A stretch of DNA of 64,000 nucleotides from Clostridia bacterium (GTDB lineage Bacteria; Bacillota_A; Clostridia; Christensenellales; Aristaeellaceae), in contig JAFWYA010000056.1 of assembly GCA_017517815.1 (NCBI GenBank), positions 25,079 to 89,078 on the forward strand, read 5' to 3'. Under the pieces are notes generated by a model. The model had not been told where the DNA came from, ran no database searches, and was given only the letters and a program-made list of their open reading frames with translations. Positions 28,505 through 39,213 of the stretch are shown in pieces. How positions within the stretch are numbered: position 1 is the first letter of the stretch; each line of letters starts with the position of its first letter. The position numbers and the translations under genes are program-made.

Positions 28505-28534
28505 AAAAAGCCTCTGACTTTCGTCAGAGGCTTT
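28505..28534 (-). terminator. Terminator hairpin at the left junction (original tRNA-Leu terminator)
   Basis: AAAGCCTCTGAC pairs with GTCAGAGGCTTT around TTTC. On the minus strand it is followed by T residues. It lies directly outside the left attachment repeat, where the tRNA transcript would have ended before the insertion. Confidence 0.7.
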
Positions 28535-28563
28535 CCTCGGTGGTGCCGGCGGTGGGACTTGAA
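28528..28563. repeat. attL, left attachment repeat
   Basis: 36 bp identical to 39178-39213, including GGTGCCGGCGGTGGGACTTG from the tRNA-Leu 3' end. Only the last part of the tRNA is present here, so this copy is not a functional tRNA. Confidence 0.92.
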
Positions 28564-28680
28564 TTAACCACGCCATATAAAACACAGCAAAACACCCTAA
28601 AACGGAAACACTTGAAATGCATACATTTCAACTCTTTCACATACATTTTAATCAATGCAAAAAAGCCCATGTAAATCATC

Positions 28681-28701
28681 ATTGTGGTACTTATTGTGGT
28701 A
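28681..28701 (+). repeat. Paired ATTGTGGTA boxes, left end (integrase arm sites?)
   Basis: ATTGTGGTA at 28681-28689 and 28693-28701, 12 bp apart, 118 bp inside attL. The same pair with the same spacing and orientation occurs at the right end (39108-39128). This is the pattern expected for arm-type binding sites of a tyrosine integrase. Confidence 0.65.
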
Positions 28702-29585
28702 TAAAATCTGTACACCAGCAGGAACCAATTTCATTTTATTAATGTGGAACATGTCCAAAAGGGTCAAAAGTCTGTTTTTGTTGTATAACAACAATTTGCA
28801 CAACCCCAAAACCCTTTCCAAAAGATGGCCAAAAGCACAGAAAGCTTTCCAGTATGCAACGCCGGTTCGCCACAATACAAATCAAATCTGTTTTTTCACA
28901 TGTGGGGATAATTAAGTTCCGCCTCTCAACAGAAGAACGTCAAAGCTTTGGCGGCACTGTGTACCATGCGCAGTACTATGAATACCCGCATATGTGTTCA
29001 CATCGAAACAGCTTTCATTGCATCTGTTCGAAGTCGCCTGCAAGAAGTCCCTTTTGCCGCACCCAGCAAAACCAGGCTCTGAATTGCTGATCCCCCCTCC
29101 GCCAACACCATCCGCCCTCAGGCGATGCCGGCCAATCAGATCCATCATGGACAGAAAGCGCAACATGGCTATGCCGTTTTTTATTTTGGAAAATCTGCTT
29201 TTTTTCACAGAGGGACCCATTTTGCGTCCCCCCCGGCAGGGCGTGCAAAAACGTGCGTGTTTAACACACCTTATCAAATAACGCTTCCTATGTTTTTCCA
29301 GTGAAACAAGCATGCACACTTCTGCACGCCGCAACAAAAATAAAGCCTTCAAAACAAGGGGGGCAGGGGATGTGCAAACGCCTGCGATAACTATATATAC
29401 AGTGTGCTGACGTCATCAAGGGGTACAAACTCCTCCTGTCCCCCCGCCCTCCGTGTTCCGGGGATGGGTACCATCATACACAAAGAAAAAAGAAACACGA
29501 CTTGTCATGGACATACATACAAGTTGAAGAAATGTAACGCTTCGATATGGACACGTTCTCGATACGCAGATGCAATATTCCTCGA

Positions 29586-29659
29586 ATAAAAAAGGCACCA
29601 CGACGCCACTAATCATCGTAGTGCTGGACAGTAAAGGCAAGTAGTCAAAGCCTTCCTGC
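29586..29659 (-). ncRNA. Candidate small RNA C of the element
   Basis: On the minus strand a promoter TTGACT-18-TAAGAT (29666-29695) is followed within 35 bp by a 9-bp stem hairpin (GCACTACGA with TCGTGGTGC, 12-nt loop) and TTTTTT. The predicted transcript is about 74 nt. A reading frame crossing it continues beyond the terminator with no protein-like pattern, so I favour RNA. Unrelated in sequence to RNAs A and B. It could also encode a very short peptide. Confidence 0.4.
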
Positions 29660-29998
29660 GCTCCTATCTTAACATAAAAAGCAATGGCCAGTCAATGGAA
29701 AGCCGGCACAGGTATCCGTTTGCACACCCATAACATTGCATTCAATTGACATCCTGGGCAATCCACGCACATGCACTGCTTTATTTTTTTACTTTCCTGG
29801 TAATCTCTGCCGATCACATCAGCAACGTTTTCCCAATTCGCCGGGTAACAAAAACTCCTTTCCCATCAAAAGCAGAGACTGTGCGGGTATTTCGTCCACA
29901 GTTCCCGAAGCAAAGAAGCTATATCCCCGGTCAGCACAACTATATTTGTTTACTGTCGAGGAATGTATTTGCTGCATCATACTTTCTCAAAAAGCGCA

Positions 29999-30282
29999 AT
30001 AAAAAACTCCGCCCTTCAACCTACCGTCCAGACAGATGAACCGTCCGTTGCCTTAGGAGGCGGAGTATGTACAGGACACAAACCGCTGTTCGAACCAGAG
30101 GACTTCACCGCCCCGTTACCGCTGCGGGATAGGCCGCATCTGGCAGTGGAAAGCATCCTGCAAATAGTCCCGGTCTACACGGCTCTACTTGCCTATCGGC
30201 GAGGACTTGCAGGTTACGCAAACGCCTCATGCCGGTACCAGCCTTGGGCACAACGTCCAGAACGAAAATGCTTCTCCCTGCA
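29999..30282 (-). ncRNA. Candidate structured RNA A of the element
   Basis: A minus-strand unit of about 284 nt with its own promoter (30288-30316) and an intrinsic terminator: ACTCCGCC (30059-30066) pairs with GGCGGAGT (30006-30013), followed by TTTTT. The first 73 nt (30281-30209) form a domain closed by TTGCAGG/CCTGCAA, with an inner hairpin GCTG-GTAC-CGGC. The same domain heads RNA B. The 3' part contains CTGGTTCGAACAG, a small T-arm-like hairpin. Transcription start is estimated from the minus-10 position. Not a class I recognise. Confidence 0.65.
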
Positions 30283-30287
30283 AAACC

Positions 30288-30316
30288 ATTGTAACCGATC
30301 AGGGGCAAATTTTCAA
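30288..30316 (-). promoter_or_regulatory. Sigma-A promoter of candidate RNA A
   Basis: Minus-strand TTGAAA-17-TACAAT, ending 6-7 bp before the start of the conserved RNA domain. Confidence 0.7.
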
Positions 30317-30355
30317 CACTACCTGCTAAGATTTCAAATATGGTTTCGGGAAGAA

Positions 30356-30517
30356 ATAAAAACAGAGCTGGTATCTGCCGACCCCGTATCCCTCGGTCAC
30401 GAACCGGGGCCGGAAGTCGGAAGCGCACCAGCTCCCGTGCCGCAGGTTACGCAAACTCCTTATGCTGAGCGCTCAGCCCTTGGGGAACGTCCGAAACGCA
30501 AATGCTTCTCCCTGCAA
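30356..30517 (-). ncRNA. Candidate structured RNA B of the element
   Basis: A unit of about 162 nt with a near-consensus promoter 5 bp upstream and an intrinsic terminator: GAGCTGGT (30427-30434) pairs with ACCAGCTC (30365-30372), followed by TGTTTTTATTT. Its first 74 nt (30515-30442) match those of RNA A at about four of five positions, both starting TTGCAGGGAGAAGCATTT and ending GTTTGCGTAACCTGC. The inner hairpin reads GCTGA-GCGC-TCAGC where RNA A has GCTG-GTAC-CGGC, so pairing is kept while the bases differ. The 3' halves of A and B are unrelated. Confidence 0.68.
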
Positions 30518-30522
30518 GGATT

Positions 30523-30551
30523 ATTATAGGGCAAGCCAGGCAAAGCGTCAA
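30523..30551 (-). promoter_or_regulatory. Sigma-A promoter of candidate RNA B
   Basis: Minus-strand TTGACG-17-TATAAT, one mismatch from consensus and the correct spacing; the conserved RNA domain begins directly after it. Confidence 0.82.
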
Positions 30552-30671
30552 CCAGTTTGAAGGCAAAGAAAAAGCAGGCCGAGGCCTGCTGATATGGAAT
30601 CCGGTGGAGCGACACTCCCGCATCTCCAACAAGGGCGACGGCTGCCCGTTCCTCCCTCAAATTCCGTTGTA

Positions 30672-30953
30672 TTACTTTGCCGGAACAAATTCAAGTTTGA
30701 TCTGCATGCCCATTCCTTCCGCCAATCTGCGCAGCGTACGCAAAGAGGGATTCGCGCTGCCGTTTTCCAGCTTGCTGATATCTGCCTGAGCAATGCCCGT
30801 TTTATCGGCAAGCTGTTTCTGCGTCAGGCCGCTGGCCTTGCGGGCGTCGATCATAGCCTGAATGATAGAGAACTCAGGATCGAGTGCATCATATTCAGCC
30901 TTAAAAGCAGGATCTTTCATCTTCTGGGAAAGATAGTCGTTGAAATTACTCAT
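30672..30953 (-). CDS. HigA-type antitoxin, XRE family
   Basis: 93 residues. The helix-turn-helix lies at 40-75 (ARKASGLTQKQLADKTGIAQADISKLENGSANPSLRTLRRLAEG). Its ATG overlaps the stop of the upstream toxin by 4 bp, so translation is coupled and the order is toxin then antitoxin, as in higBA. It would neutralise the toxin and repress the shared promoter at 31341-31369. Confidence 0.9.
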   Translation of the reverse strand: MSNFNDYLSQKMKDPAFKAEYDALDPEFSIIQAMIDARKASGLTQKQLADKTGIAQADISKLENGSANPSLRTLRRLAEGMGMQIKLEFVPAK

Positions 30954-31309
30954 TTCTGGTTCTCCTTTCGGTTGGTGTACTCTTTGCGGTAGGCTTTGGC
31001 CTTTTCGATCTCGCCGGGCGGGGTTTTCTGCGTCTTTTTTATGAAACCGTTGGTAAGGATGATCTTACGCCCGACAAAGAAGAAATACAGCACGCGGGAA
31101 ATATCAGAGCCAACTTGGGCGCGAAGTTCAAAGATCCCATCATCCAAATGTTCTGAATAAGGCATCCGGAGAGCGGTTCCATTTTTCTGCAGAAGCTCAA
31201 TGGTTCGGATCATCTTTGCCTGCATTTTCAGGTCAAGCCCTTCTAAAAACTTCTTTGCAGGTTCCTCTCCGTTGGGCAGATCGTAGAAAATCACTTCAAA
31301 CTCCTGCAT
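30950..31309 (-). CDS. HigB/RelE-type toxin (phage Gp49-like)
   Basis: 119 residues from the ATG at 31309 (first residues MQEFEVIFYDLPNGEEPAKK). The family's core is present: LKMQAKMIRTIELLQKNG, SEHLDDGIFELRAQVGSDISRVLYFF and a lysine-rich tail (FIKKTQKTPPGEIEKAKAYRKEY). Such toxins cleave mRNA on the ribosome. The longer frame to 31336 would start upstream of the predicted transcription start, so the internal ATG with AAGGCGG before it is preferred. Confidence 0.88.
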   Translation of the reverse strand: MQEFEVIFYDLPNGEEPAKKFLEGLDLKMQAKMIRTIELLQKNGTALRMPYSEHLDDGIFELRAQVGSDISRVLYFFFVGRKIILTNGFIKKTQKTPPGEIEKAKAYRKEYTNRKENQK

Positions 31310-31340
31310 AGTATACCGCCTTTCGTGCTGCTTCATGCAT

Positions 31341-31369
31341 ATTATATGGGATTTATCCTATATTGTCAA
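31341..31369 (-). promoter_or_regulatory. Consensus promoter with palindromic operator for the toxin-antitoxin pair
   Basis: Minus-strand TTGACA-17-TATAAT, identical to the sigma-A consensus. The spacer carries GGAT-TT-ATCC (31349-31358), with TAT/ATA outer flanks extending the dyad symmetry into the minus-10. Likely the antitoxin's autoregulatory site. Confidence 0.85.
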
Positions 31370-31442
31370 TCGAAAAAGCGGAGGGTAATACCTCCGCCTT
31401 ATTCCAGATCGACCACAGTGAGACCGGGCCGCAGTCCTTCAT
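31353..31442 (-). CDS. Possible 29-residue peptide upstream of the toxin-antitoxin pair
   Basis: ATG at 31442 with GGGAG 8 bp upstream; reads MKDCGPVSLWSIWNKAEVLP and ends in the HigBA promoter. A terminator hairpin (31373-31398) lies inside its last codons, so it may equally be an untranslated RNA. A weak promoter TTGACA-16-TATGTT is about 100 bp upstream. No family recognised. Confidence 0.25.
   Translation of the reverse strand: MKDCGPVSLWSIWNKAEVLPSAFSIDNIG
31373..31398 (-). terminator. Intrinsic terminator upstream of the toxin-antitoxin promoter
   Basis: GCGGAGG pairs with CCTCCGC around GTAATA; five T residues follow on the minus strand. It insulates higBA from the genes upstream. 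Confidence 0.75.
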
Positions 31443-31599
31443 ATGCTCAACTCCCGAATCAATAGAAAGCCCACCGGGTTGCGCATGCAAGCAGGGGCGT
31501 GGTGGGATCTGTTGGTTTTAACATACGCCTATCGTCGTTTTTGTCAAGCGAATTTGTAACAAAGACGCTTTCATTCACGCATCCGCCCGAACAGACGTT

Positions 31600-32316
31600 T
31601 CACTTCTTCACTTCTCCGTACCCTGAAAAACACACTTTATGTTCCTCTATCAACTGTTCGATTACCCTTTTGTTGATGTACTCAGCACCTCCAAACAAGG
31701 ATTTCCAACAGCATCCATCCCATCTGTGCAGTCGGAACATTTGATTGTTCAGAACATTGACCAGCTGATTATATTCCGAGCGTGCTTCGTCTGCTTTGGG
31801 GTCACAATCCCGATGACAGATCAGCAGCAACGCATAAAACTCCAGCACATATAAGCCAGCCATTGCCAAAAGCACGTTCTGCAGCGTTGCTGCTTTATAA
31901 TACGGCTTCTCTTTCCAGCGGGGGAAGTCACTTGAGCAGATTTCAGTACGTCTATGCTTCACCATGTTGTACAGCTTCCACCATTCCGGGCCCTTTGGGG
32001 CCGTCCACTCTTTCCAGGGCTGAAATTCTCCAAGTCCCTGCACCGTGACGGTTTCGTTCAGAATGCACGGAAAGGCGGAAACAATGGGGTGATAATACTC
32101 AGTGATATTTCCCGTGTTTTTGCCCAACAGCTCGCACAGTTGTTTTGCCAGCACATCCACTTCGCTGCACACAGCCTGATACAGGCGGTTGTACTCCACC
32201 GAAAAAGTGCCATAATTGTCCGGCTCAAAGGAAACATAGCGCTGCGTTGAAAGCAGGTCCTGTTCAAGCCCTTTAAAAAACTTCCAGTAATTCAACACGA
32301 AAGCATTTGCATCCAT
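31600..32316 (-). CDS. Uncharacterised protein of the element, possibly HEPN-like
   Basis: 238 residues from the ATG at 32316 (AAGGAGAG upstream). Mostly alpha-helical, with EVDVLAKQLCELLGK near residue 55 and GPEWWKLYNMVKHRRTEIC near 115. The Trp-Trp-x-x-Tyr-Asn-x-x-Lys-His-x-Arg pattern recalls HEPN-fold proteins of abortive-infection and restriction systems, but the usual Arg-x4-6-His site is not clear. No signal peptide or membrane segment. It follows the ribbon-helix-helix gene on the same strand. A phage-defence role is a guess from location. Confidence 0.6.
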   Translation of the reverse strand: MDANAFVLNYWKFFKGLEQDLLSTQRYVSFEPDNYGTFSVEYNRLYQAVCSEVDVLAKQLCELLGKNTGNITEYYHPIVSAFPCILNETVTVQGLGEFQPWKEWTAPKGPEWWKLYNMVKHRRTEICSSDFPRWKEKPYYKAATLQNVLLAMAGLYVLEFYALLLICHRDCDPKADEARSEYNQLVNVLNNQMFRLHRWDGCCWKSLFGGAEYINKRVIEQLIEEHKVCFSGYGEVKK

Positions 32317-32343
32317 TTCGAGCTCTCCTTCATCACGCAATTG

Positions 32344-32784
32344 TCAGGGATTATTCTGTGCAACCTCTATGGTTGTATTATTGATGATAAAACCATCCTT
32401 CTGAGTGGGAACATAAGCCGCTGCTGCAGCCGCAAGAGCCTCCTGCGGTGTATTGGCCTCAACCGTTATTTCCTGTGTGCAGATCCCGTCCATATACTCC
32501 AGCTGCTCATCGGTCATGGTTTCCCCGTTGGGCGTCTGAATGGATGAACGTTCTGTGATCCTCACCCGAAACGATGGCGTCATCACCTTGCGTCCCGCTC
32601 TTTGATTGACGGCGTTGACAATATACTGAGCCATGCTTTCGCCGGCCTGTTCCGCCGCCGCCTTAAGGCTGGCCCTGTCTCCCTTGGGCACCCGGATGGC
32701 GATTTGCTCAAGGTTTTCCTTTTGATACTTCTGCGACGCTTTGTTTCTGGACTGATTGTAATACTTTGGTTTTTCGGTCATCAT
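32344..32784 (-). CDS. Ribbon-helix-helix DNA-binding protein
   Basis: 146 residues. Residues 25-70 read LEQIAIRVPKGDRASLKAAAEQAGESMAQYIVNAVNQR, a ribbon-helix-helix (Arc/CopG-like) domain. The C-terminal half (ITVEANTPQEALAAAAAAYV and onward) is a small alpha/beta domain without an assigned function. AAGGCGG precedes the ATG. Its promoter and that of the divergent gene at 32932 share GCTAGC-containing repeats, which fits autoregulation. Confidence 0.8.
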   Translation of the reverse strand: MMTEKPKYYNQSRNKASQKYQKENLEQIAIRVPKGDRASLKAAAEQAGESMAQYIVNAVNQRAGRKVMTPSFRVRITERSSIQTPNGETMTDEQLEYMDGICTQEITVEANTPQEALAAAAAAYVPTQKDGFIINNTTIEVAQNNP

Positions 32785-32804
32785 TCACACCGCCTTTCGC
32801 GCTC

Positions 32805-32833
32805 ATTATACGCTCATGTGTTATGGCTAGCAA
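32805..32833 (-). promoter_or_regulatory. Promoter of the ribbon-helix-helix gene
   Basis: Minus-strand TTGCTA-17-TATAAT; the minus-35 overlaps a GCTAGCAATGT repeat copy. Confidence 0.65.
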
Positions 32834-32897
32834 TGTAATATGAGGTTGGATTTTTTCTCTCATTTGCTATTTGAATATTGCTAGCAATGTTTTATGA
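32826..32897. repeat. Duplicated GCTAGCAATGT boxes between divergent promoters
   Basis: GCTAGCAATGT followed by a variable pair and TATGA at 32826-32843 and 32880-32897. The right copy lies in the perfect palindrome ATTGCTAGCAAT (32877-32888). The boxes cover the minus-35 of one promoter and the spacer of the other. Confidence 0.6.
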
Positions 32898-32898
32898 T
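32871..32898 (+). promoter_or_regulatory. Promoter of the 106-residue gene
   Basis: TTGAAT-16-TATGAT; the spacer holds the ATTGCTAGCAAT palindrome. Confidence 0.65.
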
Positions 32899-32931
32899 AT
32901 ATACATCATAAAACGCAAGGAGGATCCACCA

Positions 32932-33252
32932 ATGGCAGCCATCACCGACAACCCCAAGCTCATGCCCAAGCCGCAGAACCAAAACCAGTTTCAGATCCTC
33001 GATCTGCTTGGTGATATCACCAGAGCCGCAGAAACCGCCGCCTATATCGGGCAGGATGTTCACGAAGAATACTTCGAGAAGTACCACGCGGACGAGGAGC
33101 ACGACCGCATGTTCATCTGCTACGACTACGACCGCCACAGAGTGAAGATGGGAGTCGTTATGGACGCAATCGAGGAGATCGCCTCCGCCATCAAGGCCAT
33201 CAATGTGCTGGTCATTGCTGAGAGCCAAGCGGCAAAAGAAAAAGCCTCCTGA
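32932..33252 (+). CDS. Small acidic protein of the element
   Basis: 106 residues starting MAAITDNPKLMPKPQNQNQF. A central acidic and aromatic stretch (DVHEEYFEKYHADEEHDRMF) leads to a helical C-terminus. AAGGAGG lies 8 bp before the ATG. No family recognised; similar small proteins occur in clostridial prophages and integrative elements. Divergent from the ribbon-helix-helix gene, with shared operator-like repeats. Confidence 0.7.
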   Translation: MAAITDNPKLMPKPQNQNQFQILDLLGDITRAAETAAYIGQDVHEEYFEKYHADEEHDRMFICYDYDRHRVKMGVVMDAIEEIASAIKAINVLVIAESQAAKEKAS

Positions 33253-33368
33253 TGTATCAGATCAGAAGGCGATACCAAAGGCATCCGGGAGCGGAAGCGA
33301 TTGATGACATCTCGATTCTAACAACTTCCCTCCCTTCTATCAAGCATCGATTGAAAGGAGAAACCCTC

Positions 33369-33482
33369 ATGCAGACCGAACGCGAAGAGATCAACAAGAT
33401 ACTGGACGAACTGTGCGACGATTATCTTCATATGGTGCTGGTGTTCGCTCAATCGCTCAGGAATGAACAATACAAGAAATGA
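33369..33482 (+). CDS. 37-residue helical peptide of the element
   Basis: MQTEREEINKILDELCDDYL then HMVLVFAQSLRNEQYKK: one predicted amphipathic helix. AAAGGAG lies 8 bp before the ATG and a strong terminator follows the stop, which supports a real gene in the operon of the 106-residue protein. Function unknown. Confidence 0.6.
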   Translation: MQTEREEINKILDELCDDYLHMVLVFAQSLRNEQYKK

Positions 33483-33486
33483 TTTT

Positions 33487-33511
33487 ACCGCCTTCGGGCG
33501 GTTTTTTTTTT
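33487..33511 (+). terminator. Intrinsic terminator
   Basis: ACCGCC-TTCG-GGCGGT followed by ten T residues. Confidence 0.94.
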
Positions 33512-33578
33512 GCCTTTCTTCCATGGCAGGTGACAAATACAGCCCATGCCGGCTTATTGACATGGGCTTATGCATTCA

Positions 33579-34205
33579 TTATCCGTTTTCTTCGTATGGA
33601 TCCGGCGGAGGCGGTTGCCCGCCGCTTCCCCACATCCTCCGCCGCCTGTGCGGCACACTGTATCCGCGAGCAATGGCCAGTGCGCACAGCCGCGGATTAT
33701 ACCGCAAGTCCCTGTATGCCTCATGGCGGATCACATTCAGCCGGTAAGGCGTACAGCTCAGCAATCCGGCTGCCTGCGTTTTGGTTTTCCCCTGCAGATC
33801 CACCATTTCGATCACCCGCCGCCGCTGTGCCGGCAATGCCGCCACTTCCTGCCGTACAACGCTGCGCAGTTCCTGCCGTTCTGCCTCTTCCACAACAATG
33901 CGGTCGGCATCCTCCAGAAGGTCTGCAAGCGTCTGACCATCCTCCGTAAGCGTACGGTCAAGGCTGAGGGCATCAACGGAAGGATCGCGCTTTGTGCTTC
34001 TGTTACCCACAGCCGCGCGCATTTCGTTGCGGATGTAATATGCAGCCCATGCAGGCCATGTTCCTTTGTCGGGCGTATAGGTTGCCTCCGCCCGCAGTGC
34101 TCCGATGGCAGCCGCCTGCATCAGGTCATCCATATCGACTGCACCGCCGCAGTAAGCACGATACTTCTGCGCGATCCTGCGCGCCAGCCGTTCATAGTCT
34201 TGCAT
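33579..34205 (-). CDS. Sigma-70-like RNA polymerase factor of the element
   Basis: 208 residues. Residues 5-60 resemble sigma region 2 (ARRIAQKYRAYCGGAVDMDDLMQAAAIGALRA) and 115-160 region 4 (LPAQRRRVIEMVDLQGKTKTQAAGLLSCTPYRLNVIRHEAYR). The C-terminus is a Pro/Arg-rich tail. It may be an alternative sigma factor or a RinA/ArpU-like activator of late genes. It is the last gene of the leftward replication operon, whose next-upstream gene is the Cys-rich 57-residue protein. Confidence 0.78.
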   Translation of the reverse strand: MQDYERLARRIAQKYRAYCGGAVDMDDLMQAAAIGALRAEATYTPDKGTWPAWAAYYIRNEMRAAVGNRSTKRDPSVDALSLDRTLTEDGQTLADLLEDADRIVVEEAERQELRSVVRQEVAALPAQRRRVIEMVDLQGKTKTQAAGLLSCTPYRLNVIRHEAYRDLRYNPRLCALAIARGYSVPHRRRRMWGSGGQPPPPDPYEENG

Positions 34206-34269
34206 TCGCCCCGCACCTGCCTTATAATGGAATCAGGTCACGTCCTCGCAGCAGATGCGGGGGCGGTTT

Positions 34270-34443
34270 TTATTCTCCCTGTTTTGGGTTTTCCTCGCCT
34301 TTGGGTGCATCCTCAACCTTTTCTCCGCTGAACATCAGGGAATCCTCAATGCCTCGGAGAGATTCAAAAGCGCAGCTTCCAAGCAAATTCAATTTGCAGC
34401 GTTCGGTGCATTCCATTTCCCTAAAAGGGCAAATCCGCTTCAT
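34270..34443 (-). CDS. Small cysteine-rich protein of the element
   Basis: 57 residues: MKRICPFREMECTERCKLNL, then LGSCAFESLRGIE and an acidic tail. Four cysteines in the first 25 residues suggest a zinc-binding knuckle. GAGGTGATGAA precedes the ATG. Peptides with the same CPFRE-x-C-x3-C start are known from clostridial prophages; no function is assigned. Confidence 0.65.
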   Translation of the reverse strand: MKRICPFREMECTERCKLNLLGSCAFESLRGIEDSLMFSGEKVEDAPKGEENPKQGE

Positions 34444-34460
34444 TTCATCACCTCAAGTAT

Positions 34461-34772
34461 TCATTTGTATCGGCTGTATTTCTCAAAAAGGTGGTCAACT
34501 TCCACTTCTGTCATCCCGTCAAGCGGATGCTGTTCCATCTCTTTCATCAACTTGCGCAGCGTACATTCCAGCTTCTGGCGATTCTTTGCAAGGGTCTCCT
34601 CCGCTGTCCCCCTCAATGGCCGGAAAAGAACCGTTGCCGTCAAAGCCTCCCGATGAAAAATCACCGGTTCCAGCAGTACAGCCTCGCCTCTGCGCACTGC
34701 CTGACCGATGGCCAGCGCGTCCAGCACAGAACAGGTGCGCCTGTCGGCCTTTTCTTCGTTTGCAAAGGGCAT
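34461..34772 (-). CDS. Uncharacterised 103-residue protein of the element
   Basis: Begins MPFANEEKADRRTCSVLDAL; alpha-helical with a charged second half (AEETLAKNRQKLECTLRKLM). The ATG overlaps the stop of the DUF3987 gene, and GAGGAG lies just upstream inside that gene, so the two are coupled. A GTG one codon earlier is an alternative start. No family recognised; part of the replication operon. Confidence 0.6.
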   Translation of the reverse strand: MPFANEEKADRRTCSVLDALAIGQAVRRGEAVLLEPVIFHREALTATVLFRPLRGTAEETLAKNRQKLECTLRKLMKEMEQHPLDGMTEVEVDHLFEKYSRYK

Positions 34773-36226
34773 CACTGTTCCTCCTCATGGAACAGCACTT
34801 CGATAAACCACGCCGGACGGCCGCCGGTGGTCTCTGAGAAGCGTCTGGCCAGCCCCGCAGCAGCGACTTCTGCGATAGCGTCATCCACTGCAGAGGCATT
34901 GCGGAAACCCTTCCGCTTGGACATGTTCTTCTTGAAATCGCGTTCACCTACAATCCGCTTTCCGGCCTTGCCCAATTGATCCAGCACCATACGCGCACGG
35001 TCTGAAAGCCTGGCGGCCGGCCCCAGCATGTGCAGCGTATGCCGGATAAAATACCGGTTGATGGCAATGGCGTTTCGCATCTGTGCGGCGGTAATCTCGT
35101 CGTCAATCTGCCCCGACCACAGTTTCAGCGCGCAGGCGATCCGGGCGAGGTTGGACTGCATCTTGCCTGTAAATCCATATTTGCGAAGCCCCTCCCATTC
35201 GTCAAACTGTTTTTCGCGCATCTCATCGCGGAATGCCATAAACAGGCGCTGTGCCTCCGGCGAGAGTGTATAGCAGTGGGACTGGGTGTTCATCATGCGT
35301 TGGACAGCAACGGCATAGTCCGCCTTGACCTTTGCAGGAATCGGCGGTTCCGGCCCGTATTCGCGAAGTGGCTCAGGCCGCGCGATCACAAAACGCGGAA
35401 CCAGTCCCTTGCCCACCATGCGCGAATCTGCAAACACATTGTCCACCACGAAAGGCTGTGCCAGGATCAGCACGGACAGACTTGCTTTGGGCACTACCAC
35501 GGACGGCCTGCCGCGCCTGTGGGACTCCAGCGGGCTTGCATTGTAGCCTTTTAGAAAGGGGTCCAGGGTAGGCGAATCCTGATATCGTCCCGCCAGCAGT
35601 TCGAACAGGTCGCCTTCGTCGTCCAGAATGGCTGTAGCGCCCTCGTTTTCCAGCATAATATCGGGATAAGCCTCCGGCGTTACATTACTGCCAATAAAAC
35701 GGCGCATGGGGTACATGGCCGGATAAGTGGCGATTCTTTCGGCAATTTCACGGGCTTTCGCTGTGTTTTTCTTGCGGACGGCTTCCGCCTTTTCTGCCTG
35801 CAGCACCTCCTTGGCTGCCTTGTCCTGCTCAATCTGTACAGCGCGGCGCTGGTTCTCCTCCGCCTGCGTCTGAAACAGAACATCCGTCAGTTTCTTGAAG
35901 GCAGGCGTTTTCGCGCTGCCCGAATCCATCACCACCAGCATGTACAGCTGCCCGGGTTCCGTCCAGTCTTCGCGTATGTTTACGCGGATTTTGCCGCATC
36001 CGCAGGCGGAGGCGACGCCAAGCCCAATGCAGGCCGGCAAGTCCAGCGGCACCGAGAGATTGGCCGCCAGTGCTTCACACATGGCCCGCAGCGGTTCCGG
36101 CAGCCATTCTGCACGAAAAACCGGCGGTCGGGCGCTGATGGGTTCATATTCCCCCATCAGCTGCTGTGCCTGCGGCGTTTCCATCAGAGCTGCGCATTCC
36201 TGAAGTTCATCATCGTATCTGCTCAT
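34772..36226 (-). CDS. DUF3987 (helicase/primase-like ATPase) protein
   Basis: 484 residues. N-terminal LPEPLRAMCEALAANLSVPLDLPACIGLGVASAC is typical of DUF3987 (YfjI-like). The P-loop is DSGSAKT near residue 110, a shortened form of GxSGSGKS. Residues 125-165 are a charged coiled-coil insert. A winged-helix C-terminus follows (ARMVLDQLGKAGKRIVGERDFKKN). It overlaps the CHC2 primase gene by 4 bp; together they would initiate replication of the element after excision. Confidence 0.86.
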   Translation of the reverse strand: MSRYDDELQECAALMETPQAQQLMGEYEPISARPPVFRAEWLPEPLRAMCEALAANLSVPLDLPACIGLGVASACGCGKIRVNIREDWTEPGQLYMLVVMDSGSAKTPAFKKLTDVLFQTQAEENQRRAVQIEQDKAAKEVLQAEKAEAVRKKNTAKAREIAERIATYPAMYPMRRFIGSNVTPEAYPDIMLENEGATAILDDEGDLFELLAGRYQDSPTLDPFLKGYNASPLESHRRGRPSVVVPKASLSVLILAQPFVVDNVFADSRMVGKGLVPRFVIARPEPLREYGPEPPIPAKVKADYAVAVQRMMNTQSHCYTLSPEAQRLFMAFRDEMREKQFDEWEGLRKYGFTGKMQSNLARIACALKLWSGQIDDEITAAQMRNAIAINRYFIRHTLHMLGPAARLSDRARMVLDQLGKAGKRIVGERDFKKNMSKRKGFRNASAVDDAIAEVAAAGLARRFSETTGGRPAWFIEVLFHEEEQ

Positions 36227-36744
36227 TTTTCCTCCGTATACATATTTAACAGCTGCGCCATTGTAGCGCTGTCCAGCAGATTGAGGGTATCGCCGGCTGT
36301 CGCTTTTCTGTCTGCCGTCTGCCAGAAGAGTTCGCTTTGCTGCAGCTGTTCAGGCGTATACCTTCTCTGCAGCTCCATCATGGTTTTCTCTGCCTTATGG
36401 AGCTGACGGCATGCCTCCGTCCACTTTTGACCCTTCCAGTCGTTCAGCTTCCGGCGCAGATCCTCCGCCGTCGCCTTTCTGGGTCTGGGCTTGGATGGGC
36501 CTCCTCTGACCACACGCAGCGCCTCGCCCAGCGATACGCCATGCAAAGCCGCATACAGATCCACAGCATCCCCATGGGCTCCGCATCCGAAGCAATGGAA
36601 TTTTCCATCCGGAAAGAAGCACATGGACGGCGTTTTTTCGTTGTGGATCGGGCAGCACGCCCACTGCCGGGATCCCCTGGCGCGCAGTTGAATGCCAGCG
36701 TTGCGGGCGACTGTGGCGGCGTCAGGGAGCAACGTTGTTTCCAT
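36223..36744 (-). CDS. CHC2 zinc-finger primase-like protein
   Basis: 173 residues from the ATG at 36744. Zinc site Cys31, His34, Cys51, Cys54 in CPIHNEKTPSMCFFPDGKFHCFGCG, as in DnaG N-termini and phage primases. The catalytic TOPRIM domain is absent, so it depends on the DUF3987 partner or recruits host primase. The start is not certain: an ATG at 36774 with GGTGAGTG upstream is also possible. It overlaps the excisionase gene by 23 bp. Confidence 0.86.
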   Translation of the reverse strand: METTLLPDAATVARNAGIQLRARGSRQWACCPIHNEKTPSMCFFPDGKFHCFGCGAHGDAVDLYAALHGVSLGEALRVVRGGPSKPRPRKATAEDLRRKLNDWKGQKWTEACRQLHKAEKTMMELQRRYTPEQLQQSELFWQTADRKATAGDTLNLLDSATMAQLLNMYTEEK

Positions 36745-36922
36745 AGTGCTGATTGACCCACTCTTTGAGTCCATCAACACTCACCAGAATTTTTTTGCCT
36801 GCACGAAGCGAAGGGAAACCCTCCGATGCAGCCATTTGATAAAACGTCGGCATTGATACATTCAGCAAAGCAGCTGCCTCTTTTGCTCCGATCAAGATTT
36901 TTTCTTTTTTATTTTCATCCAT
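36722..36922 (-). CDS. xis: Excisionase / AlpA-like helix-turn-helix protein
   Basis: 66 residues from the ATG at 36922 (GGGGGG 7 bp upstream). ILIGAKEAAALLNVSMPTFYQMAASEGFPSL is a MerR-like winged helix as in Xis and AlpA. It is the first gene of the leftward operon, divergent from the repressor, and precedes the primase. It would direct the integrase to excision or activate the operon. Confidence 0.85.
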   Translation of the reverse strand: MDENKKEKILIGAKEAAALLNVSMPTFYQMAASEGFPSLRAGKKILVSVDGLKEWVNQHYGNNVAP

Positions 36923-36940
36923 TTTTTTGCCCCCCATTAC

Positions 36941-36968
36941 TTGCTATTTCGTACCTATATGTTATAAT
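36941..36968 (+). promoter_or_regulatory. Rightward promoter of the repressor and integrase genes
   Basis: TTGCTA-16-TATAAT. The spacer contains the half-site TTTCGTACC. Confidence 0.78.
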
Positions 36969-37024
36969 TGGTACGATTAGATCGTAACACTGTTTCGTAT
37001 CAAAGTCAATGACGTGGTACGAAA
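36947..37024. promoter_or_regulatory. Two spaced dyad operators for the element repressor
   Basis: Dyad 1: TTTCGTACC-N14-GGTACGATT (36947-36978). Dyad 2: TTTCGTATC-N14-GGTACGAAA (36993-37024). Both have the same 14-bp gap and start 46 bp apart. Dyad 1 covers the rightward promoter and dyad 2 the leftward one. This is a clean genetic-switch layout. Confidence 0.8.
36981..37009 (-). promoter_or_regulatory. Leftward promoter of the excisionase-primase operon
   Basis: Minus-strand TTGACT-17-TACGAT; the spacer contains the half-site TTTCGTATC. Confidence 0.75.
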
Positions 37025-37046
37025 TAGATGCATGAGGTGATTTTTT

Positions 37047-37760
37047 ATGATCGATTCCAGCCAAATTGGTACGCGATTGAAAAATTTACGTGAACAAAAA
37101 GGTATCTCCCAGCAAAAATTGGGGCAGTTTCTTGGAGTAAAGAGAGAAAGTATAAACGCCTGGGAAATGGGCATACGCGAACTTAAAGGTACATACATCC
37201 ACCAATTGGCCGATTTCTTCGGTGTTTCAACCGACTATCTGCTATGTCGCGTGGATTATCGCAGTCCCTCAGCAACGCTGCAGGGCATCTGTGAGGAAAC
37301 GGGCCTTTCCAGCGAGGCCGTTCAAACATTGATGGATATGAAGTCCGATGCCGTTGAAAAGTGGCAGAATCCCTATTCCTATCAGGCTAACGAAACCTGG
37401 CTGCCCGACTGGAAACAGCGCAAAGAAACTGTTTTTAATATGCTGAATCTGTTGCTGAGCCAGGACGAGCTGCTGGAAGACCTGCTGCTATTGTCCAAGC
37501 GGATTGACGAGGCGGTTCTTGCAGATAAGCAGCTGAAAGAAGACGGAACCGCTGAGCGCAGTGCAAGCCAAAACAAACCGGGTTTTCTTTCGCCGGATGA
37601 AATGAAGGAATACAGAGAGTATCTGGTATCCGACCAGTCAAGAAAGCTGGCTTATCGCGCTTTGGGTAAGATTGCCGCTTTAAAGGACACACAAGGACAA
37701 TTAGATATTCAGGGTATGGAATGGTTCTGCAATCTCAAAGCCAAAGGGGGCGACGTCTAA
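37047..37760 (+). CDS. XRE-family repressor of the element
   Basis: 237 residues. Helix-turn-helix at 7-60 (IGTRLKNLREQKGISQQKLGQFLGVKRESINAWEMG). The C-terminal two-thirds is helical with no LexA-type Ser-Lys protease site, so induction would need a separate antirepressor or a helper-phage protein, as in staphylococcal pathogenicity islands (Stl). GAGGTGAT precedes the ATG. It is directly followed by the integrase gene with no gap, so both are one operon. It probably binds the two TTTCGTAYC dyads just upstream. Confidence 0.9.
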   Translation: MIDSSQIGTRLKNLREQKGISQQKLGQFLGVKRESINAWEMGIRELKGTYIHQLADFFGVSTDYLLCRVDYRSPSATLQGICEETGLSSEAVQTLMDMKSDAVEKWQNPYSYQANETWLPDWKQRKETVFNMLNLLLSQDELLEDLLLLSKRIDEAVLADKQLKEDGTAERSASQNKPGFLSPDEMKEYREYLVSDQSRKLAYRALGKIAALKDTQGQLDIQGMEWFCNLKAKGGDV

Positions 37761-38948
37761 ATGCCCAAACGCAAAGCCGCCAACGGTCAGGGAACCCTCC
37801 GCCAGCGTGCAGACGGTACTTGGGAAGGCCGTGTCTCCATCGGGCGTGACCCCGGCACAGGCAAGCACCGGCAGAAATATTTCTACGGCAAAACGCAGGC
37901 CGAAGTGCGAAAGAAGATGACCGCCTTTTCCGCCGAAGTGGATAACGGTATTTTCTCCGAGCCATCCAAACTGACCGTGGGCCAATGGCTGGACATCTGG
38001 CGCGCCGAGTATTCCGGAGGCATCAAAACAAGCACGGTTGACCAGTACCGTACTCAGGTAGAGCAGCACCTGAAGCCGGCTTTTGGAGCAGTGAAACTGG
38101 ACAGGCTGACCGCGCCCATGATCCAGAAGCTCTATAATCAAAAGCAGCGGGAGCGCGCTGCAGATCCGAAAGGCCGTGCCGGTCTGAGCGCCAAGAGCAT
38201 CAAAAACCTGCACAGCGTTCTGCACGAAGCGCTTCAGCGTGCCGTCAAGCTGGGTTATCTCAAAGCCAATCCCTGTGACGCCTGCGAACTGCCGCGCATC
38301 GAACGGCATGAAATCCAGCCGCTGACCAGTGAAGAGGTTGGCAAGTTTCTCAAAGCGATCCGCGGCCACAAATATGAACGTCTCTTTACGGTCATGGTAT
38401 TTACCGGCATGCGTCAGGGTGAAGCACTCGGCCTGCGCTGGTCGTGTGTTGATCTGTCAGCAGGCACCATCCGCGTTGACCGTCAGCTGCAGAAAGAGCG
38501 CGTCCCTGGCGGCGGAGGCGAATACAGACTTGTGGAAACGAAAACCAGCAATGTGCGCACGCTGACGCTGGCGCCCTTCGTTGTGGAAGTTCTTAAAGCC
38601 CAAAAGAAGGCGCAGGCAACCAACCGCCTGTTCATGGGCCCCGAATGGAAAAACGAATGGAACCTTGTTTTCACGCATGAAGACGGCAGCCACCTTGCAG
38701 CCAAAACCACATATGACTGTTTCAAACTGATTGCAAAGAAAATCGGTGTGGAAACCGCCCGTCTGCACGACCTGCGCCATACATACGCTACGCTTTCCCT
38801 GCAAAACGGCGATGACCTGAAAACGGTAGCCGACGCCCTGGGGCACAGCAATATTTCCACCACAGCCAATATTTACGCCCATGTCACCGAGCGCATGCGC
38901 AAAGAAAGCGCCGCGCGCATGGAAAGCCTGATCCAATCCATCAAATAG
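37761..38948 (+). CDS. int: Tyrosine integrase
   Basis: 395 residues, the size of Tn916-like and phage integrases. N-terminal arm-binding domain (1-60, QGTLRQRADGTWEGRVSIG), SAM-like core-binding domain (70-170) and catalytic domain with Arg218 (FTGMRQGEA), Lys261, His336-Arg339 (LHDLRHTYAT), His362 (LGHSNIS) and the nucleophile Tyr372. It starts directly after the repressor stop. It lies next to the right attachment site, and paired ATTGTGGTA boxes at both ends are likely its arm sites. Confidence 0.95.
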   Translation: MPKRKAANGQGTLRQRADGTWEGRVSIGRDPGTGKHRQKYFYGKTQAEVRKKMTAFSAEVDNGIFSEPSKLTVGQWLDIWRAEYSGGIKTSTVDQYRTQVEQHLKPAFGAVKLDRLTAPMIQKLYNQKQRERAADPKGRAGLSAKSIKNLHSVLHEALQRAVKLGYLKANPCDACELPRIERHEIQPLTSEEVGKFLKAIRGHKYERLFTVMVFTGMRQGEALGLRWSCVDLSAGTIRVDRQLQKERVPGGGGEYRLVETKTSNVRTLTLAPFVVEVLKAQKKAQATNRLFMGPEWKNEWNLVFTHEDGSHLAAKTTYDCFKLIAKKIGVETARLHDLRHTYATLSLQNGDDLKTVADALGHSNISTTANIYAHVTERMRKESAARMESLIQSIK

Positions 38949-38986
38949 CACCTTTTGTCCCTCATCAATGCACTTTTGTCCCCTTT

Positions 38987-39013
38987 CGTCCCAGCTTTTG
39001 GGACGATTTTTTT
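38987..39013 (+). terminator. Intrinsic terminator of the repressor-integrase operon
   Basis: CGTCCC pairs with GGGACG around AGCTTTT; seven T residues follow. Confidence 0.88.
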
Positions 39014-39107
39014 ATTGTGTACAAATCATTTCAGGCTTTTGGTACTTTGCGAACATAAGTTCACATAAAATCACTTTCGGGCACCAAAACAACATCAAAA
39101 CGCGCTG

Positions 39108-39128
39108 ATTGTGGTATAAATTGTGGTA
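39108..39128 (+). repeat. Paired ATTGTGGTA boxes, right end (integrase arm sites?)
   Basis: ATTGTGGTA at 39108-39116 and 39120-39128, same spacing and orientation as the left pair, 50 bp inside attR. Confidence 0.65.
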
Positions 39129-39150
39129 ACAAGGTGTTTTTGAGCATAAG

Positions 39151-39183
39151 AAAAAGCCCTGAAACACTTATGTTTCAAGGCTT
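39151..39183 (-). terminator. Element-borne terminator for tRNA-Leu
   Basis: AAGCCCTGAAACA pairs with TGTTTCAAGGCTT with one mismatch; T residues follow on the minus strand. It replaces the chromosomal hairpin that the insertion moved to 28505-28534. Confidence 0.75.
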
Positions 39184-39213
39184 TCCTCGGTGGTGCCGGC
39201 GGTGGGACTTGAA
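39178..39213. repeat. attR, right attachment repeat
   Basis: 36 bp identical to attL. It includes the CCA end, acceptor strand and part of the T arm of tRNA-Leu. Confidence 0.92.

Follow-up and report, generated by a model that had tools for sequence, protein, structure and literature searches.

Tandem structured RNAs of an undescribed class in a clostridial satellite-like element and the association of this class with phage PBECR nuclease genes

Introduction

A stretch of 64,000 nucleotides from a Clostridia bacterium (contig JAFWYA010000056.1, hereafter the window) contains two tandem minus-strand transcription units, A and B, located in an integrated satellite-like element. The locus raises the question of what kind of RNA these units encode and what use such an element could have for it. 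A first-pass annotation, made from the sequence letters, proposed a tandem pair of undescribed structured RNAs in a phage satellite, and this part of the interpretation stands. Its comparison with the large ornate phage RNAs ROOL and GOLLD and its picture of a common cap joined to different bodies are not supported. The informative context lies beyond that annotation: the pairing of the RNA class with genes for PBECR nucleases, which are predicted RNA-cutting toxins, and the presence of a known RNA, skipping-rope, beside unit A.

Results

Units A and B share a structured domain

Each unit has a sigma-A-like promoter with a 17-bp spacer and its own terminator, both directly established from the sequence (Table 1) and as first annotated. 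The domain common to A and B comprises approximately 75 nt, begins with TTGCAGGGAGAAGCATTT at the predicted transcript start and is closed by GCAGG/CCTGC. In unit A it consists of the closing stem P1 (GCAGG/CCTGC), an inner stem P1b (GCA/TGC), the hairpin P2 (CGTTTCGGACG) and an arm P3 that, by folding, carries the apical hairpin GCTGA-GCGC-TCAGC. That an inner hairpin is formed from different bases in A and B was confirmed, and beyond the domain no convincing alignment between the two units was obtained, in line with the unrelated 3′ parts described before. Free folding is unremarkable for A as well as for B (z-scores of -1.33 and -0.64, respectively), so the support for RNA structure is comparative.

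None of the families in Rfam 15 matches A or B, either at gathering scores or at an expectation value (E) of up to 10. Searches by DNA, by pattern and by model identified 15 copies outside the window (13 in genomes, 2 in viral contigs). In G001, the nearest among the genomes searched, the same tandem pair is present (531-nt query, 95% identity); G014 contains a single, diverged copy. In the phage contig L007 the core is almost unchanged, with the closing stem swapped from GCAGG/CCTGC to AACGG/CCGTT; a gapped pattern added one further phage contig, L049. At family level, covariance models detected the RNA in 7 of 308 genomes; the order sample yielded 4 of 396 genomes and the class sample 3 of 391. 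G001 is counted in each of these three sets and G115 in two of them. In the window itself, only A and B exceed 8.7 bits with model R3 (E up to 10). The window motif gave no match in the viral contigs when used as an exact joint pattern, nor did the whole stretch in a blastn search of phage and plasmid records. A half-motif pattern was found in 35 stretches (4 in viral contigs and 31 in genome contigs), with the whole motif only in the known copies L018 (G001) and L020 (G014); the remaining stretches look like chance.

For the covariation analysis, 18 copies were aligned with MAFFT after trimming each row to the ends of its model match; unit A of G001, being identical, was omitted, and L069 and L076, which were reached via a protein neighbor, were included. 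Across these copies, 94% of the cells of P1, P1b and P2 are paired. Cells that changed on both sides number 66, compared to 21.4 ± 3.8 in shuffled alignments (none of 500 reaching the observed value), and slid registers give at most 13. This excess indicates a real RNA class, and the assignment of A and B to an undescribed structured RNA class is therefore well supported, its stems being directly established by covariation. The double changes affect 7 of 7 pairs in P1, 2 of 3 in P1b and 1 of 4 in P2. In 15 of the 18 copies the stretch from P2 to P1b is predicted to form a single nested two-tier hairpin. The fold looks like a three-way junction. Its closing stem P1 varies freely, the inner stem P1b is short, the hairpin P2 (CGYYYYGGRCG) hardly varies, and the arm P3 is variable.

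Two other descriptions of the conserved sequence were rejected. The first RNAalifold fold contained the helices GAAGC/GUUUC and ACGU/GCGU, in which no pair changed on both sides and each pair is broken in 0 to 4 of the 18 copies, whereas P1b shows the double changes mentioned above. A protein-coding explanation fails because the antisense frame shifts between copies while the RNA structure stays; the antisense peptide across the RNA varies by locus (L007, L049, L055 and L061), in line with the earlier statement that open frames are not conserved. Unit B does have, by eye, a plus-strand frame that spells the peptide of L007, which is to be expected for near-identical DNA. A mobile palindromic element without RNA function, MITE- or RPE-like, would explain the inverted ends and the insertion-like in-frame position in the L007 open reading frame (ORF), of which no relatives were available for an empty-site comparison. 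This explanation was already disfavored and is hardly credible in view of the compensatory changes in every P1 pair, the fixed position and orientation relative to one protein domain, and the promoter- and terminator-like sequences.

Judged by eye, a strong promoter directly precedes most copies; none is obvious for L002 and L050. In most of the copies other than A and B, the domain plus a terminator looks like the entire RNA. By eye, the closing stem and the U-run behind it resemble a terminator in L043, L049 and L052, and the domain would therefore be the whole RNA there. This speaks against both the cap-and-bodies picture and the likeness to ROOL and GOLLD. The latter are large RNAs with which A and B share the phage or satellite setting, whereas the conserved part is small here and lacks an Rfam match.

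Two genomes of different species in one genus, G182 and G199, have a copy at the same chromosomal-looking site (L056 and L058), flanked by genes that by eye are aldehyde-dehydrogenase-like and sugar-kinase-like.

Beyond the shared domain, unit B has a segment that, on two sequences, looks like a second RNA module (Table 1). Its closing stem is AGUCCU/GGGACU in the window and GGUCUG/CAGACC in G001, with three pairs altered on both sides and none broken in this comparison of two sequences, and its 24-nt core, GATAGGCAAGTAGAGCCGTGTAGA, is unchanged between both. Among 114 loci examined, a 17-nt pattern from this core matches only in the G001 loci. A weak SIB_RNA match at 29585-29695 (20.2 bits, cut-off 56) was taken as chance.

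Members of the class lie opposite PBECR nuclease genes

In L007, L042, L048, L049 and the locus of G756 (L053/L062), all reached from the RNA side, the end of one and the same protein domain is accompanied by the RNA on the opposite strand. The partner genes are PBECR2 or PBECR3 according to Pfam; for L007 and L049 the neighbor is PBECR3 and not Abi_2. The part of the fold listing that was consulted neither names nor excludes ToxN.

The association was also approached from the protein. A search with PF18812 in 308 genomes gave 11 loci, 8 of which are above cut-off, and 10 of which could be evaluated, as in L074 the PBECR gene is at the contig end. In six of these ten (L067, L068, L069, L070, L071 and L076) the antisense RNA is present, as such or as a diverged cousin, and the other four have skipping-rope RNA above cut-off on the sense strand (L065, L072, L073 and L075). 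Scanning the viral contigs for the protein yielded four loci, every one with the RNA and two of them not known before. When the scan was repeated with another PBECR subtype, two distinct loci were obtained, again both with the RNA; one of these, L116, is GC-rich (18.9 bits), and L117 and L118 are copies of L115. The protein alignments used for both scans include loci already known to carry the RNA. Among phage records, 11 matched and 4 were examined, L081 and L082 being close kin with the same score and place. A human-gut phage record (L083) has the RNA at 35.5 bits and Rhodobacter phage RC1 (L084) a partial match at 17.1 bits, while two Streptococcus phages have a solo PBECR3-like gene followed within 20 nt by skipping-rope (70.3 bits). 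A tblastn search of the phage records with the PBECR domains of L007 and L071 gave no match.

Altogether, each of the 20 evaluable PBECR loci reached by protein has one RNA, namely the antisense class or its diverged cousin in 14 and the sense-strand skipping-rope in 6; without the 4 loci that the RNA searches had already given, the count is 16 of 16. The RNA–PBECR adjacency is thus directly established, and the association is well supported. In 13 of the 14 protein-side antisense loci the RNA lies within 34 nt of the end of the PBECR match, from clostridial prophages to the GC-rich contig L116. This proximity bears on the idea that the RNA is a trans-acting small RNA with a host or phage target, such as RNA polymerase or a host RNA, and merely shares hot spots with PBECR genes. 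The chromosomal-looking orphans, for instance the G182/G199 pair between the same two genes, would suit such a role, but the tight spacing makes it very unlikely, RC1 being a weaker case.

The antisense position also suggests a cis-antisense regulator that would base-pair with the transcript of the phage gene it overlaps and so lower expression of that gene in a type I-like manner, the RNA structure serving stability. The RNA gene indeed lies antisense inside a long ORF in L007, L049 and L062, and it overlaps polyvalent genes in L007 and L049. Nevertheless, the core and its structure are kept across unrelated loci and at orphan copies, where no PBECR gene was found, the PBECR ORF stops 20–30 nt short of the RNA at the two G115 loci, and the alternative partner skipping-rope is on the sense strand. 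Cis-antisense regulation is therefore quite unlikely.

In RC1, the match may be a permuted relative antisense to the 3′ end of a minor head protein gene; it comprises a promoter-like TTCACA-N17-TATATT, a stem CTGGCGCG/CGCGCCAG seen by eye and the core CGTCTCGGACG.

Skipping-rope RNA is a second 3′ neighbor of PBECR genes

The window also contains a skipping-rope RNA (RF02924) directly upstream of unit A, which the first-pass annotation had overlooked. It has a weak promoter-like site just upstream and a terminator-like hairpin beside it (Table 1). A and B themselves give no match to the skipping-rope model (cut-off 36.7 bits). Among 255 genomes of the class, skipping-rope occurs in 28, with 34 matches, 30 of which were examined as loci L085–L114; L112 is below the Rfam cut-off, and L105 and L106 are near relatives. 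Per locus, only the longest same-strand ORF ending between 350 nt before and 120 nt after the RNA start was scanned. Thus examined, 18 of the 30 loci have a PBECR2 or PBECR3 gene above the Pfam cut-off just upstream, and L091 has a PBECR match below it. Skipping-rope lies near MuF (above cut-off) with Tox-MPTase4 (22.0, cut-off 25) in L090, near DUF4258 (25.6, cut-off 25) with a MuF match below cut-off in L109, and beside a Gp49-like gene in L110, the relative of the window. The MuF-related cases L090 and L109, with their other toxin-like domains, raise the possibility that skipping-rope serves further phage toxins. Eight of the 30 loci have no PBECR, MuF-related or Gp49-like neighbor. L110 is the only one of these loci with both RNA classes.

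Both RNA classes thus occur 3′ of PBECR genes, the A/B class in antisense and skipping-rope in sense orientation. Skipping-rope resembles the A/B class in being a small RNA, in this position and in its presence in the element, and differs from it in consensus and in the strand relation to PBECR.

The element carrying A and B

The RNA units reside in an element that appears to be a phage satellite or integrative element, as it carries an integrase, att-like direct repeats of 36 nt, one overlapping a tRNA-Leu gene, and replication genes (DUF3987 and a CHC2 zinc finger). This agrees with the setting initially proposed. The element also has a repressor-like helix-turn-helix (HTH) gene. Among the 10 element proteins scanned, a subset of the ORFs, neither virion genes nor Abi_2 was found, and four local profiles (E up to 1) detected no PBECR gene in the window. 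A and B do not follow a PBECR gene on the other strand, which makes them orphans of the class.

The protein at 32347-32784 on the minus strand weakly matches a TacA1-like antitoxin family (23 bits, cut-off 21). From the left repeat towards the RNA units, approximately 1.3 kb (28564-29900) is, by eye, without a convincing gene.

Table 1. Positions of the RNA units and of other features in the window
Feature	Position	Strand	Evidence or remark
Unit A, transcription unit	about 30515-30358	-	
Unit A, promoter TTGACG-N17-TATAAT	30523..30551	-	sigma-A-like, 17-bp spacer; sequence
Unit A, conserved RNA domain	30440..30518	-	model R3, 71.6 bits (copy in training set); pair counts
Unit A, long terminator hairpin GAGCTGGT...ACCAGCTC-TGTTTTT	30354..30434	-	with U-run
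Unit B, transcription unit	about 30283-30003	-	
Unit B, promoter TTGAAA-N17-TACAAT	30288..30316	-	sigma-A-like, 17-bp spacer; sequence
Unit B, conserved RNA domain	30207..30284	-	model R3, 86 bits (copy in training set); pair counts
Unit B, putative second RNA module	30160..30208	-	comparison with G001
Unit B, terminator hairpin ACTCCGCC...GGCGGAGT-TTTTT	29997..30066	-	with U-run
Skipping-rope RNA RF02924	30596..30665	-	39.6 bits, cut-off 36.7; directly upstream of unit A
Weak promoter-like site TTGAAT-N17-TACAAC	30666-30694	-	just upstream of skipping-rope
Terminator-like hairpin	30565-30589		by skipping-rope
Integrated satellite-like element, 10.7 kb	28528..39213		between 36-nt direct repeats
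Direct repeat, left	28528-28563		36 nt
Direct repeat, right	39178-39213		36 nt; overlaps tRNA-Leu gene
HTH_3 gene	30672..30953	-	HigA/antidote-like
Gp49-like gene	30950..31336	-	toxin-like
Sigma-70 region 2 protein	33579-34205	-	
DUF3987 gene	34772-36226	-	
CHC2 zinc finger gene	36223-36780	-	
Integrase	37761-38948	+	

Discussion

What could RNAs of this class do next to a nuclease gene, and why would a satellite keep them without one? We consider it reasonably probable that A and B are orphan RNA antitoxins that act like type III or AbiF antitoxins; the binding and inhibition of an RNase and the protective use are what we infer here. In the home setting, the RNA would be transcribed from its own promoter, on the opposite strand and directly 3′ of the gene for a phage RNase of the PBECR family. 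As an antitoxin or immunity RNA, it would bind and inhibit that RNase during production of the toxin by the phage or lysogen. The three RNAs that the satellite carries in the absence of a PBECR gene, i.e., skipping-rope, A and B, could then shield the host or the satellite when helper or competing phages deploy their RNases.

Known systems offer partial precedents. According to the parts consulted of the report on AbiF/RCd22 from a C. difficile prophage (abiF motif RF03085), the RNA neutralizes the protein in cis and in trans by direct binding (PMC12373285). There too, a phage-borne toxin gene adjoins a small structured RNA with a predicted SigA promoter, a terminator and a duplicated motif (PMC12373285). 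In that system, the toxin is Abi_2 and the RNA is located upstream. The class described here differs in having a PBECR RNase as its partner, in the convergent position of the RNA 3′ of that gene, in its fold and in the occurrence of orphan copies. With the type III systems ToxIN, CptIN and TenpIN, as far as described in the sections consulted of PMC5086642, the class shares an endoribonuclease toxin with an RNA partner, inhibition being presumed here. In those systems, the antitoxin consists of repeats arrayed upstream of the toxin, and a terminator separates the two (PMC5086642); the tandem pair A and B, by comparison, consists of two copies with different 3′ parts.

Several observations weigh against this explanation. 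Unlike in type III systems, the RNA is single-copy, 3′ of PBECR and convergent. Only 5 of the 15 RNA-first copies adjoin a PBECR gene, in addition to one beside a PBECR remnant in G010 (L055 7865-8002, minus strand; local profile, E 0.0013), and within the stretch examined no PBECR gene was found for 9 of the 15 and for both window copies. The neighbor of A and B themselves is a HigBA-like pair. Its Gp49-like member is presumably HigB-like and of the RelE superfamily. At least four orphan copies (G182, G199, G592 and G058) look chromosomal by eye rather than phage-borne. On the protein side, the model scores of L069, L070, L071 and L115 are weak (13.7–14.8 bits, E 0.05–0.1), L080 and L084 match the RNA only in part, with the arms of L084 seemingly in a different order, and the PBECR3 matches of L075 and L076 are under the Pfam cut-off. 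Finally, in 5 of the 13 loci of a promoter test (L069, L076, L079, L080 and L083), at least 7% of the background windows equal the promoter.

The weak scores mean little alone, but they occur on the expected strand at the expected place, and such scores are rare elsewhere. In the 64-kb window, only A and B reach them; 89 kb of skipping-rope loci contain one extra (L088, 14.7 bits) beyond two true copies; and nothing exceeds 11.5 bits at other places in 61 kb of protein-reached loci. In the promoter test, in which the background windows overlap and one site can count several times, no background window was as good for L066, L068, L070, L077, L078 and L084. For the others the numbers were 5/124 (L067), 5/114 (L071), 11/124 (L069), 16/226 (L080), 25/226 (L079), 20/76 (L083) and 19/70 (L076).

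Instead of inhibiting the PBECR RNase, the RNA might be its cofactor, guide or preferred substrate, for example being processed by the RNase or delivered with it. The adjacency is also consistent with such a role, RNases of the BECR fold frequently target tRNA or rRNA (PMC5512222), and the P2 loop (UUUCGGA and variants) looks, by eye, similar to an anticodon loop of 7 nt. Orphan satellite copies make less sense for a cofactor, however, and separate promoters better suit an inhibitor made in excess, which renders this alternative unlikely.

Skipping-rope was reportedly described in a paper of 2017. In the literature searched, which did not extend to that description and was consulted in part, no report of an RNA partner for PBECR was found. 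As far as consulted, PMC7779021 and PMC8501573 concern skipping-rope but not its function, and PMC5576092 reports a proposal that immunity to MuF toxins comes from small ORFs downstream.

The orphan-antitoxin explanation can be taken further, to a stronger form that is held only tentatively and with considerable doubt. PBECR phages would guard their RNases by RNA instead of protein immunity, using two unrelated folds, the new class and skipping-rope. Satellites would gather toxin-free antidote clusters, here skipping-rope, A, B and the further covarying domain in B, against the RNases of helper or rival phages, and the invariant P2 may mimic an attacked anticodon loop.

The polyvalent and MuF proteins of phages carry predicted RNases and other toxins, for which immunity is little known. 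With the present results, the PBECR RNases gain a concrete and testable RNA partner, and the Rfam family skipping-rope gains a hypothesis on its function. If the proposed role is true, neutralization by RNA would extend to a toxin family that is probably delivered with the virion, and satellites would carry antidotes free of their toxins.
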